Assembly (NCBI GenBank): GCA_903877135.1
Contig: CAIRCN010000058.1
Coordinates: 1-64,000 of the forward strand
Reading direction: 5' to 3'
DNA: 64,000 bases
DNA from: an uncultured Opitutia bacterium
Lineage (GTDB): Bacteria > Verrucomicrobiota > Verrucomicrobiia > Opitutales > Opitutaceae
The translations under genes were made by a program, and so were the position numbers. Under the pieces are notes generated by a model, which saw nothing but the letters and a program-made list of their open reading frames with translations, had not been told where the DNA came from and searched no databases. Of this stretch, positions 1 through 3,043 are shown in pieces; positions within the stretch are counted from its first letter, which is position 1, and each line of letters begins with the position of its first letter.

Positions 1-120
1 GTTTGATGGTGAAAACTGCGGTGGTTGATGGCATGGGTGTAACAGAGTCACATTTTTCGGAGATGTCAAGAGGCACAGAGTCACCAACACAATAACATCA
101 TCTTCTTTCGGCACGCCACG

Positions 121-176
121 GGTGCGGGCTCACGCAGACCGCGAGTGGCAGTCAAGTGCATAGCCCAATTATCCTA
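121..176 (+). pseudogene. Left fragment of an interrupted receiver-domain gene
   Basis: Read in the frame that joins across the target duplication, this flank encodes RVAVKCIAQ and continues into LSYQVDVVNSGAAALDHF on the other side of the insertion. That matches the first helix of a response-regulator receiver, where such domains usually read NQ-V-x-x-x-L-x-x-L-GY-x-V-D-V-V-x-N-G. The stretch further left lacks the expected DD phosphorylation motif, and stops occur in frame before about position 42, so the 5' part is lost or badly decayed. The joining of the two halves is inference based on the matching reading frame. Confidence 0.35.
169..176. repeat. Target-site duplication, left copy (TTATCCTA)
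   Basis: The octamer TTATCCTA directly abuts the left terminal inverted repeat and recurs at 2421-2428 directly outside the right one. Eight-base duplications are characteristic of the IS1595 family. Because both copies are perfect, the insertion is probably recent relative to the decay of the host gene. Confidence 0.9.
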
Positions 177-199
177 ATGGCCTATGCAGTTGACTGACA
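177..199 (+). repeat. IS1595 left terminal inverted repeat
   Basis: These 23 bases are the exact reverse complement of 2398-2420. The outer tip begins ATGGCCTATGCAG. Identity stops at the 24th base (C at 200; the mirrored position 2397 would require G but is A), which fixes the inner limit. Confidence 0.92.
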
Positions 200-238
200 C
201 TTGAGTGAGGGTTCGTATCCCCGACACCTCAAAAAGAG

Positions 239-1183
239 ATGCCGCGGTCTACCCAAAGTCCTGGTGCGAACCTCGCGGCCCTAGTCGCACCGTTCCCCCA
301 AGATAGAACTGAATTCGCTCAGTGGTTTAGAGAAGAGGAAAAATGTCTGGAGTATCTGGCAGCGGTCCGGTGGCGGGATGGCTTTATGTGTCCGAAGTGC
401 AACGCCGTTGCCGCGTGGGAAGTCGGCCCCGGCTTGCTCCGATGCAAATCGTGCCGGCGATTAGTTTCTGTCACGGCGCGAACGCTTCTTCATCGAACTC
501 GAAAACCGGTGCGCGACTGGTTCGAGGCGTTTTGGCACCTCTGCGGACAGAAAAACGGAGGCAGTGCGCTTGGTCTTCAGCGAGTCATGGGCTTTGGCAG
601 TTATCATACAAGCTGGGAGTGGATGCATAGGATGCGGCGCGCTTTTGTGGTGCCGCCGCGCTCGAAGCTTACGGGGGAAGTCGAAGTCGATGAGACCTTC
701 ATCGGCGGTGTGCGCCACGGAAAACGAGGGCGCGGTGCGGCCGGCAAGACACTCGTTCTGATCGCTGCCGAAATAAGAGGAGTGAGGATAGGGCGAATCA
801 GGCTGGTTGTGATTCCCGATGCGACCGCAAGCACCCTAATCCCGGCGGTTCAGTCCTTGGCGGAACCTGGCAGTAACGTGGTCACCGATGGACTCGCCAG
901 TTACACCGGCCTGACCGCCAGCGGTTACAATCACTCCGTTTCGCGCGCCACGCCGCAAGTCGGCAGGAATCTACTTCCGCATGTTCACCGAGTTGCCTCT
1001 CTACTGAAGCGATGGCTTCTCGGCACACATCAAGGGGCGGTCGCCCATGATCGCCTCCAATCCTATCTCGATGAGTTTGTGTTCCGATTTAATCGTCGGT
1101 CGTCTGGCAGTCGCGGACTGCTATTCCACCGCCTGCTCGTTCAGGTGCTCAAGAGCGGTCCGGTTCCCAGAACACGCCTCTAA
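239..1183 (+). CDS. IS1595-family transposase
   Basis: This 314-residue protein cuts and joins the element ends. An N-terminal zinc ribbon is visible as CPKC (Cys51, Cys54) and CKSC (Cys69, Cys72), the arrangement typical of ISXO2/IS1595 transposases. The catalytic RNase H-like core starts at EVDETFIGG with Asp151 and continues at VVTDGLASY with Asp217. The third catalytic position appears to fall in LPHVHRVASLLKRW, with His250 and Lys257, rather than a Glu; some IS1595 subgroups use N or H there. Length is normal and there is no frameshift, so it is probably functional. The start is an ATG 39 bp inside the left terminal repeat. It is the only gene on the plus strand of the element. Confidence 0.93.
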   Translation: MPRSTQSPGANLAALVAPFPQDRTEFAQWFREEEKCLEYLAAVRWRDGFMCPKCNAVAAWEVGPGLLRCKSCRRLVSVTARTLLHRTRKPVRDWFEAFWHLCGQKNGGSALGLQRVMGFGSYHTSWEWMHRMRRAFVVPPRSKLTGEVEVDETFIGGVRHGKRGRGAAGKTLVLIAAEIRGVRIGRIRLVVIPDATASTLIPAVQSLAEPGSNVVTDGLASYTGLTASGYNHSVSRATPQVGRNLLPHVHRVASLLKRWLLGTHQGAVAHDRLQSYLDEFVFRFNRRSSGSRGLLFHRLLVQVLKSGPVPRTRL

Positions 1184-1675
1184 TGCGTTCACCGCCGCTT
1201 GGCCCGGCGATTCACTAGCCGAACCCGCCGCTTGAAAAGATCGAGTAGTGAAGCGGCCCGAACCTCAGCGCTGCCGTCGAGGTGATTCCACGATTCATGG
1301 AAGCGGCCATTTTGGTCAATCTGCTCGGAGCGATGATGCCGTGGCAGGAAGAATATCTTTTCGACGCGAGGAATGCCCCGAAGATTCCGGCGGAGCCGCA
1401 GGCAGACCTCCGGTCCAACGTCCGCCGGCGAAGCGACTTCCTCCACCGCCTCACCGCTCCGACCTGTGCGCACTGCACAAATCTCAATTTGCGAGTGCAG
1501 ACGCAGATTGGGGACCACGTCCGCTAGATCAGCTTTGGCGTGCGCCATGCGTTCTGCGTAGGTGGTCGCAGTTGTGTAGTAGGCCAAACTCGGGTTGCAG
1601 TTGTGCGAGCCAGCAAGATTGGTTTTGTGCAATTTGAGATTCATGGAAGTAAGAGCTACATGTCCGGCTCGGAGC
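1184..1675. other. Passenger interval of the IS with no confident gene
   Basis: Between the transposase stop and the vapC stop lie 492 bp without a recognisable gene. The longest open frame is on the minus strand at 1189-1728 (179 codons, running into the 3' end of vapC), with an internal Met near 1644 that would give about 151 residues. Its composition is mixed, rich in Arg and Leu, and no motif is recognisable. Plus-strand frames here look like shadows. It may be a decayed or unknown passenger gene, or only the 3' trailer of vapC. Confidence 0.3.
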
Positions 1676-2083
1676 TCACGAAAAGGGGTTGAGTGTATTG
1701 ACGCCGGAGCGCTGGAAATCGGAGACATAGCGCGTCACTACTGTAAGTTTGTGTTCGAGTCCCGTTGCCGCGATCAGGCCATCCGAAACAGGGAGCGGTT
1801 GGTTTAAGCAGAGGCGACCCCAGCGGTCAGTGATGGCGGCGGTGATCGGCAGGATTCGTTCCGCGTAGTGTGCCTCCAAGCCAAGTAGCCACCGTTCTAG
1901 TGCGCCGGCGGCTTTCGGATCCTTGGCACGATGCAGTTCGATGCCCCGTCGGATTTCTCCGAGCGTGAGCACGCTGAGGAACGCTTCGTCTGGCTGGATG
2001 CCTGCCATCCAGCTCGCCACACCGTGATCGCAGTGTGGCTTCCGAAGTTCCGAAATGACGCAGGTGTCCAGCAGGTAGGCCAT
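1676..2083 (-). CDS. vapC: VapC/FitB-type PIN-domain toxin
   Basis: A 135-residue PIN-domain ribonuclease, expected to cleave RNA (often tRNA) when its antitoxin is lost. The four acidic residues of the PIN active site are present: Asp6 in YLLDTCVISE, Glu43 in LTLGEIRRG, Asp101 in PVSDGLIAATG and Asp122 in VSDFQ. The usual TRNVxDF signature reads TRYVSDF here, so the conserved Asn is a Tyr. The start codon overlaps the vapB stop by one base (TGATG), the usual translationally coupled arrangement. It lies inside the IS1595 element, with its stop well short of the transposase. PIN toxin identity is strong; the target is unknown. Confidence 0.9.
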   Translation of the reverse strand: MAYLLDTCVISELRKPHCDHGVASWMAGIQPDEAFLSVLTLGEIRRGIELHRAKDPKAAGALERWLLGLEAHYAERILPITAAITDRWGRLCLNQPLPVSDGLIAATGLEHKLTVVTRYVSDFQRSGVNTLNPFS

Positions 2084-2319
2084 CAGAGTTCGACGGGACG
2101 GGGAAGATCGCTAGTCCGAGGAAACTCCACGGCTTCGCTTTGAGGGATGCTGCGCAAGTATTCGATGAAGTTGCGTTTCGGCCCAGGGTTGTTTCCGACC
2201 AAGGCCGAACGGAGCAATCGCCGATGTGCTTCTTCGACGGAAACACCTTGTGCGGCCGCACTACTGCGCAGCTTTCTTACGACGGCGGGTTCGATGTCGC
2301 GGACAAGAAGTTGAGGCAT
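2083..2319 (-). CDS. vapB: VapB/FitA-type antitoxin
   Basis: A 78-residue protein starting MPQLLVRDIEPAVVRKLRSS, the ribbon-helix-helix signature of FitA-type antitoxins: a beta strand followed by two helices ending around residue 40. The C-terminal half (NFIEYLRSIPQ and on) would wrap the toxin. It is the first gene of the pair and overlaps vapC by one base. RHH antitoxins of this class normally repress their own operon. Tandem 8-bp repeats just upstream (2330-2346) are a plausible binding site. It is carried as a passenger inside the IS element. Confidence 0.88.
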   Translation of the reverse strand: MPQLLVRDIEPAVVRKLRSSAAAQGVSVEEAHRRLLRSALVGNNPGPKRNFIEYLRSIPQSEAVEFPRTSDLPRPVEL

Positions 2320-2329
2320 GGGTTATGAA

Positions 2330-2354
2330 TGATAGCACTGATAGCATTTGTCAA
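2330..2354 (-). promoter_or_regulatory. Putative vapBC promoter and operator
   Basis: On the minus strand a perfect TTGACA hexamer lies at 2354-2349. Downstream of it, just before the vapB start at 2319, are two direct repeats of TGATAGCA (plus-strand reading, 2330-2337 and 2339-2346) one base apart. Repeats of this type in front of an RHH antitoxin are usual autorepression sites. The -10 element is not clear: TATCAT is present but at short spacing. The call rests on position and repeats only. Confidence 0.45.
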
Positions 2355-2397
2355 GAGGCAACCTCGCCAACAGGCATTGCCTCCTGCTCTCTATGAA

Positions 2398-2420
2398 TGT
2401 CAGTCAACTGCATAGGCCAT
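2398..2420 (-). repeat. IS1595 right terminal inverted repeat
   Basis: A perfect 23-base reverse complement of 177-199. It ends directly against the second TTATCCTA copy and therefore defines the right boundary of the element. Confidence 0.92.
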
Positions 2421-2428: not shown

Positions 2429-2925
2429 TCAGGTCGATGTCGTCAATTCCGGTGCGGCCGCCTTGGATCATTTCTCGCAGCATGAGCCGGACTTGGTCCT
2501 GCTTGATGTCGGTTTGCCGGACACGAATGTTTTCGAAATCTGTGAAACGCTGAGAATTGGCATGGGATCGATGCGGTCCCGGTCATTTTCATCACATCCC
2601 GAAGCGACCCCGATGAAATAGATGAGAGCTTGGCGGCCGGCGGAGTTGATTACCTCGCCGAGCCATTCCGCAAGTAGTAGGTCCGGGCGCGCATTCGGGT
2701 GCACCTGCTGAACCGGCTGCGAGTCGCGCAGTTGCACAAGGAAGAAATCTCAAAAAATCTGCTTCTGTGCATGGCGGCTTACGACTTGCGCAATCCCCTC
2801 GTCTCAATTCGGGCGCTGACCAACTTGTTGCGTAACGACACGGTCGAATTGGTCACGCCGAAACAGCGCGACCTGCTGGACACTGCCTATGACGCCAGCC
2901 AGTCGATGCTCGAGCTGCTCTTTCC
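2421..2925 (+). pseudogene. Remnant of a receiver-histidine kinase gene, interrupted and decayed
   Basis: Downstream of the IS the sequence encodes a receiver core (EPDLVLLDVGLPDTNVFEI) with the phospho-acceptor Asp. A frameshift near 2550-2565 follows. The second frame continues as AVPVIFITSRSDPDEIDES and DYLAEPFRK, then meets two consecutive TAG codons (2675-2680) where relatives usually have Glu. Translation resumes as VRARIRVHLLNRLRVAQLH and then CMAAYDLRNPLVSIRALTNL, a HisKA domain whose phospho-acceptor His is a Tyr (TAC, 2780-2782). The match fades after SQSMLELL. One insertion, one frameshift, two nonsense codons and loss of the key His make this a certain pseudogene. Its partner and signal are unknown. 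Confidence 0.85.
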
Positions 2926-3043
2926 AATGGGCGGTGTGACCAGAATCGTCGCTGCCTTCTGGTCGAGTTGCTTCATCCTGAAACGCAGGTCTGGGGGTTT
3001 ACACCCCATTACATCGGCACCGCGATCTGAGTATGATCCTCCC

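Follow-up and report, generated by a model that had tools for sequence, protein, structure and literature searches.

A 2009 paper by Siguier is said to have defined the IS1595 family of insertion sequences (IS) together with the tIS (transporter IS) elements, insertion sequences that bear passenger genes. As the initial annotation of the DNA discussed here correctly held, IS1595 elements with passenger genes are known (PMC3129680, PMC5704250; like the other papers that we cite by PMC number, these are drawn on in part), and tISCpe8, a lincomycin resistance element, and MTnSag1 (tISSag10) both combine an IS1595-family transposase, ends of about 25 bp, a target duplication and passengers, such tIS elements being read as mobilizable (PMC5704250). 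Toxin–antitoxin pairs, PIN toxins included, have been found in 39 of 190 Tn3 elements, where the pair, placed near the resolution site, remains with the transposition module as other passengers vary (PMC7157771), and Tn7-like transposons are carriers of varied defence genes (PMC8649781). Here we consider the first 64,000 nucleotides of a contig (CAIRCN010000058.1; C58 in our numbering) from an uncultured Opitutia bacterium of the Opitutaceae, a stretch that we call the window, in which positions 177–2420 are a complete IS1595-family element enclosing a VapBC toxin–antitoxin operon. We are confident, short of certainty, that this is a tIS of the IS1595 family in which a stable left end and transposase core are joined to an exchangeable slot, the slot holding a FitAB-like VapBC operon.

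IS1595 passengers and Tn3 toxin–antitoxin pairs are familiar, and what appears to be new here is toxin–antitoxin cargo in an IS1595 element. We found no description of such cargo in the literature searched, which was covered mostly at title and abstract level and did not take in the ISfinder and TnCentral entries, nor in the consulted parts of PMC7986276, PMC6563490, PMC3129680, PMC5704250, PMC12548467 and PMC7157771. The window element has the transposase type, end length, duplication and passengers of tISCpe8 and MTnSag1, but its passenger is a toxin–antitoxin operon, and its relatives carry other toxin–antitoxin or candidate-defence genes. It is, like many Tn3-family transposons, a DDE transposon with a type II toxin–antitoxin pair (PMC7157771), yet it has no resolvase gene and VapBC is itself the part that varies. 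With the Tn7-like transposons it shares a varied load of defence genes (PMC8649781), although it belongs to another transposon family and accommodates a single cassette in an IS of 2–3 kb.

The limits of the element, read from the sequence and recomputed, give a length of 2,244 bp. Its 23-bp inverted repeats (177–199 on the forward strand, 2398–2420 on the reverse) are complementary at 23 of 23 positions, and directly outside them lie two copies of the target duplication TTATCCTA, at 169–176 and 2421–2428, identical in all eight bases, the left copy standing between a neighbouring element and this one. Terminal inverted repeats with an 8-bp target duplication are a feature of the family that many relatives also possess, and to see an IS1595 transposase framed by an 8-bp duplication, with a perfect 23-bp repeat at precisely the ends of that duplication, goes far beyond what chance would give. 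The transposase gene (239–1183, forward strand) is uninterrupted, and its 314-aa product matches DDE_Tnp_IS1595 (PF12762; 1.9e-30, 106 bits against a cut-off of 27), Zn_ribbon_IS1595 (PF12760; 3.7e-10) and the NCBIfam IS1595 transposase model NF033547 (186 bits against a cut-off of 75). Cysteines 51, 54, 69 and 72 of the zinc ribbon are all invariant in seven aligned rows, as are D151 and D217, and the likely third catalytic position of the DDE domain is His in this protein and Asp in the copy on contig C51 of the same genome. With VapBC inside the ends, on the reverse strand and converging on the transposase, the single transposable unit of the initial annotation stands, as does its remark that the toxin–antitoxin genes face the transposase.

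The antitoxin gene vapB (2083–2319, reverse strand; 78 aa) encodes a FitA-like ribbon-helix-helix protein (Pfam FitA-like_RHH, PF22513; 1.8e-10), and vapC (1676–2083, reverse strand; 135 aa) a FitB-like PIN-domain toxin (Pfam PIN, PF01850; 1.9e-12) whose nearest solved structure is FitB, 2h1c, at 2.5e-12. The two genes are adjacent in one operon, the stop of vapB overlapping the start of vapC by one base. Acidic residues D6, E43, D101 and D122 of VapC are present, at what we take to be the places expected for a PIN active site. A PIN toxin, a FitA-like antitoxin and overlapping genes are what one sees in FitAB and type II VapBC systems generally, but here the pair is borne in an IS and the toxin is a predicted one. 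The region upstream of vapB (2320–2355, reverse strand) has one TTGACA and two direct repeats of TGCTATCA (TGCTATCAgTGCTATCA) and is a possible operator and promoter.

Passengers that serve no transposition function are the hallmark of a tIS, and simple relatives of the window element have no cargo at all. Is VapBC a fixed part of this element? The initial annotation implied that it was. A scan of genome contigs found 274 relatives, the best 80 of which were kept, and not one of these 80 has vapBC. Sixty-seven are too short to house a passenger, ending within about 1.2 kb (some at contig ends, and not all with a matching duplication), four are bounded cargo elements (L029, L030, L086 and L102), two have cargo and a right end that is not resolved (L031, L032), and seven could not be resolved. 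The closest relative found, L029 from a Lacunisphaera metagenome-assembled genome (MAG), is 2,077 bp long with a transposase identity of 76–78%, near-identical core repeats and its own 8-bp duplication, TTTGATAT, and it has a KilA-N gene where the window has VapBC. Among all 309 loci gathered, matches to vapB or vapC (1e-3) are confined to the window's own copies and to loci fetched with VapC; those fetched with the transposase contain none besides the window's own, so that the Tn3 habit of keeping the pair with the transposition genes is not seen here. VapBC is thus not a constant part of the element, its place being filled by other genes in relatives. Of the two observations that would have told against the earlier proposal, one was made, since L029 has the repeats without vapBC, and the other was not, because the flanks of vapBC at a chromosomal locus of another genome (L275, discussed below) differ from those in the window. 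The suggestion that VapBC would make the element addictive to its host also has less force than it has for Tn3 elements, since even close relatives have other cargo in place of VapBC.

The boundaries of the slot can be read from six pairs of related elements. In all six, the left end (whole or in part) and the transposase are similar, and similarity returns at the right end; the slot accordingly stretches from the transposase stop to the right repeat. The right-end similarity covers the last 22–60 bp in these pairs (about 235 bp in L221/L230; weak in L214/L218, with an E value of 0.36). L086 (DUF3800) and L102 (HipB–HipA), close kin from beta-proteobacterial genomes, have a main match of 82.6% over 988 bp followed by the last 22 bp. 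Within the slot there is nothing beyond a chance-level match between L143 and L186, a chance-level match of 30 bp between the window and L029, and matches of 26–68 bp in L228/L229, L221/L230 and L214/L218. In a tree of 81 transposases, the window belongs to an Opitutae clade of eight with 100/100 support, in which one member (L035) is a simple IS and the other seven each carry a different cargo; the cargo label requires five changes, at least four of them forced by starred branches. In the L086/L102 pair, L102 has, just after its transposase and inside the slot, a 56-bp repeat of the transposase 3′ end (element positions 1077–1132; 77% match to L086 918–973), which may be a trace of cargo capture.

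To survey the cargo more broadly, 384 genomes of the class were searched with a profile; 38 of them yielded 55 matches, of which three from the window's own genome and two from genome G484 were excluded. The remaining 50 comprise 25 bounded cargo elements (at least 18 of 22 end bases and 7 or 8 of 8 duplication bases), two with 300–500 bp and no clear gene, eight that end within about 1.05 kb and 15 that could not be resolved. Two further bounded elements, L250 and L251 (the ends of the latter matching at 17 of 22 bases), bring the total to 33, including the window, C51, L029, L030, L086 and L102; the stretches of L030 and L031 refetched as L184 and L183 were left out of the counts, as were L152 and L153, which have no transposase match. 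L203 was rejected as a cargo element, what it contains being an IS256-type insertion (named by reading the sequence).

Classed by Pfam and PADLOC, with small cargo open reading frames (ORFs) only partly scanned, toxin–antitoxin families occur in five of the 33: VapBC in the window, HipA in L186, HipB–HipA in L102, HicA with a RelA/SpoT protein in L214, and HicB in L218 with a HicA-like ORF (named by reading, with no Pfam match). Restriction–modification genes are found in two (L250, L251) and PADLOC candidate-defence families in three (L029, PDC-S22, KilA-N; L030, PDC-S02, DUF1016; C51, PDC-S27, AAA-DUF234), making 10 of 33 in these groups and 23 outside them. DUF3800 and DUF7689 are each present in two of the 33, and 19 have no telling match, three of these with a small helix-turn-helix ORF. 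The two cases of DUF7689 as IS1595 cargo come from two genomes (L224 6270–6980, 2e-30; L245 6374–7168, 3e-28). In a distant IS1595 group from Verrucomicrobiae (L217, L226, L211, L220, L228–L231) many cargo genes have weak Pfam matches or none at 0.01, and it is possible that these are new toxin–antitoxin or defence genes.

A bias of the cargo towards toxin–antitoxin and defence is plain only in the window's own clade. There, all five bounded cargo elements (the window, C51, L029, L030 and L186) fall into the toxin–antitoxin, restriction or candidate-defence groups, and so do three with one end not resolved: C78, a HipA element placed in the clade by a 72% transposase fragment; L031, with AbiEii (3e-26) and an AbiEi-like ORF (0.0042, below the cut-off); and L032, with weak restriction-type matches (HSDR_N, 3.4e-5, just below the cut-off). 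L030 and L031 are from an Opitutus MAG. We also compared PADLOC matches of 45 cargo proteins with those of 119 flank ORFs (120 were chosen and one 874-aa ORF of L029 omitted; the flank ORFs had a floor of 100 aa and the cargo proteins none). At E values of 1e-10 or below, at least seven of the 45 cargo proteins match, among the best 25 of 27 families, with members partly identified and two MTase_II members deduced from Pfam; among 25 of the 52 families of the flank set, mad3 has three members, mad2 two, and helicase-type families or DrmD one each. The flank count at this threshold is incomplete, and Fisher p is 0.046 if it is six and 8e-5 if it is zero. At 1e-60, among the matches listed, at least six of 45 cargo proteins stand against one to three of 119 flank ORFs (helicase-type families only), with p of 0.014 for three flank members and 0.0018 for one. 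With so small and imperfect a background, the enrichment of defence cargo is suggestive only.

Where the operon came from is indicated by a VapC search of 387 genomes of the phylum, 38 of which, the window's own included, have a match at 1e-12 or better. The best VapC outside the window's genome, with 89% identity against 54% for the next, is in G484, another member of the Opitutaceae. At this locus, L275, the vapBC DNA has a 680-bp match of 84% identity that begins at the vapC stop codon and ends some 36 bp upstream of vapB, defining a cassette at 1676–2355 of the window (reverse strand); a repeat pair with changed letters lies at the same place upstream of vapB. The L275 pair lies outside any paired repeats, with a hisZ-like gene (named by reading the sequence) on one side and, on the other, an IS1595-type element that lacks a transposase and has AbiEi (2.9e-20) and a frame-broken AbiEii as cargo. 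The end of this element is about 12 bp from the edge of the cassette, and no clear duplication was seen around the element. The vapBC cassette of the window was probably gained from a related Opitutaceae chromosome.

The genome itself is rich in such elements, having 11 ends that match the repeat pattern and 0 that match the reversed pattern. Across the 223 genomes of the order that were searched, 43 of the other 222 have only one or two pattern sites each, and the reversed control matched a similar number of genomes (about 33), so the pattern search is of no use for finding further cargo elements. Another element is present in three copies, seen as six contig ends (left ends on C16, C39 and C67; right ends on C68, C46 and C38) that pair by the exact 8-bp duplications TAAAACAA, AAAAAGAT and TATTTTTT, the third pair requiring a start shifted by one T. 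At each end 137 bp are identical across the copies and the cargo is not assembled; this pattern is good evidence that a close relative of the VapBC element has moved recently. The C51 element, of 2,734 bp, has the exact duplication TAACTCAA and an AAA-DUF234 gene as cargo, and between that gene and the transposase (L143 2430–2620) lie several near-palindromic GGCGCC repeats that are perhaps operator or regulatory repeats. The HipA element of C78 is cut by the contig start, and contig C21 (L142 1615–2369) has an element of about 755 bp without a transposase, which has IS1595-type ends, flanking TAAAGAAA and a metallophosphoesterase gene.

Immediately to the left of the VapBC element, positions 1–168 (reverse strand) are the end of a neighbouring IS1595-type element that is cut by the contig start; its inverted repeat (146–168, TGGCAGTCAAGTGCATAGCCCAA) is separated from the VapBC element by TTATCCTA alone. 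Contig C57 starts with a related end that is likewise flanked by TTATCCTA, and two elements were likely inserted in tandem at one 8-bp target, with the middle absent from the assembly. Joining the C57 flank to the right flank gave no intact interrupted gene, so it is the common TTATCCTA that speaks for the tandem insertion; the receiver-domain remnant on the right is already broken downstream. This insertion site (2429–2940, forward strand) is a broken response-regulator/histidine-kinase locus with receiver (1.7e-7) and HisKA (4.9e-8) matches, its frame breaking after about 2565. At 1–34 (reverse strand) the cut neighbour has an ORF start, MPSTTAVFTIK, after TGCCTCTTGACA, which is also found upstream of vapB; these 11 residues, all that the window contains of it, may begin another antitoxin-like gene.

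Between vapC and the transposase lies ORF179 (1189–1728, reverse strand; 179 aa, or 151 aa from an inner ATG at 1644), to which no family is assigned. It has no Pfam, NCBIfam, PADLOC or plasmid match, and among the 309 loci none besides the window's own copies. Its codon-position G+C pattern resembles that of vapC, its length is within what chance can produce (96 of 1000 random sequences of the same dinucleotide make-up, 0.096, contained an open frame at least as long), and its single-sequence fold was unusable (predicted local distance difference test score of 37).

We infer that the transposase is active and the VapBC pair functional. The transposase would recognise both 23-bp ends, move the whole 2.2 kb as a unit and make the 8-bp duplication, and VapBC, with its own upstream region, would be expressed on its own. 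Cargo would be exchanged either by pairing the left end of the element with a new downstream end or by recombination within the common core. Several points weigh against this picture. Neither the genome itself nor the relatives searched contain a second copy of the exact VapBC element, so its mobility has to be argued from its ends and target duplication; the assembly is a draft of 87 contigs, one of which starts where the window does; a stretch of about 490 bp adjoining the vapC stop is unexplained; and short slot matches in five of the six pairs indicate that replacement is not always clean. As for the earlier claim that the module keeps its own promoter, an upstream region of its own does lie inside the element, but a sigma-70 scan for a vapBC promoter returned 0 sites and no full consensus.

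Could the arrangement have arisen without a unit having moved? A simple IS1595 copy might have lost its right end, the end of an unrelated copy happening to lie beyond a resident vapBC, and indeed such ends are common in this genome (11 sites) and the L275 vapBC is 12 bp from one. The identity of the two ends at all 23 bases and the exact duplication of 8 bp around them nevertheless mark the insertion of a whole unit, and the matched duplication refutes the chance account unless the left TTATCCTA stems from the neighbouring element alone; we consider it very improbable. A different possibility is that VapBC is an integral addiction module that stays with the transposase and aids invasion and persistence, as has been proposed for Tn3. 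The repeats enclose the whole pair together with an upstream region of its own, and Tn3 pairs do sit inside the transposition module (PMC7157771), but the closest relatives carry other genes or none and the 309 loci yielded only the window's own copies and those fetched with VapC, so this idea is already weakened and we think it unlikely.

A stronger contender is that the host benefits, in phage defence or stress, from VapBC and from much of the other cargo, and that this is why they are carried, the IS being one of several vehicles. The cargo of the clade is in keeping with this, consisting of VapBC, HipA (twice), AbiE, DUF1016 (PDC-S02), KilA-N (PDC-S22), AAA-DUF234 (PDC-S27) and one restriction-like set. 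Against it, the bias is clear only in one clade, because 23 of the 33 bounded cargo elements have no toxin–antitoxin, restriction or candidate-defence match, and the background comparison is small and imperfect; we regard host use as a real possibility towards which we do not lean. It is a guess, and a doubtful one, that VapBC in particular gives the element stability or the host protection. Returning to the exchangeable slot, the boldest version of that reading, which we put forward tentatively and at a little under even chances, is that one Opitutae IS1595 lineage is a dedicated one-cassette carrier of toxin–antitoxin and defence genes. In such a lineage a fixed left end and transposase and a short right end (mostly 22–60 bp) would enclose a slot refilled with VapBC, HipA, AbiE, DUF1016, KilA-N and similar cassettes, and transposase-less derivatives and tandem insertions at a common 8-bp target would supply the material for exchange.

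Single toxin–antitoxin and defence genes are known from chromosomes in which no vehicle for them is apparent, and an IS of 2–3 kb that refills one slot would, if real, explain part of that scatter. If the lineage is indeed a dedicated carrier, it would rank among the smallest self-mobile carriers of such genes. The relatives, which share the transposase core and differ in cargo or lack it, form a comparison series, and it becomes a testable question whether carriage of these genes benefits the element, the host or neither; the 19 of 33 bounded elements whose cargo has no telling match provide a candidate list for new toxin–antitoxin or defence genes. Tiny insertion sequences may, in short, shuttle toxin–antitoxin and suspected anti-phage genes one cassette at a time.

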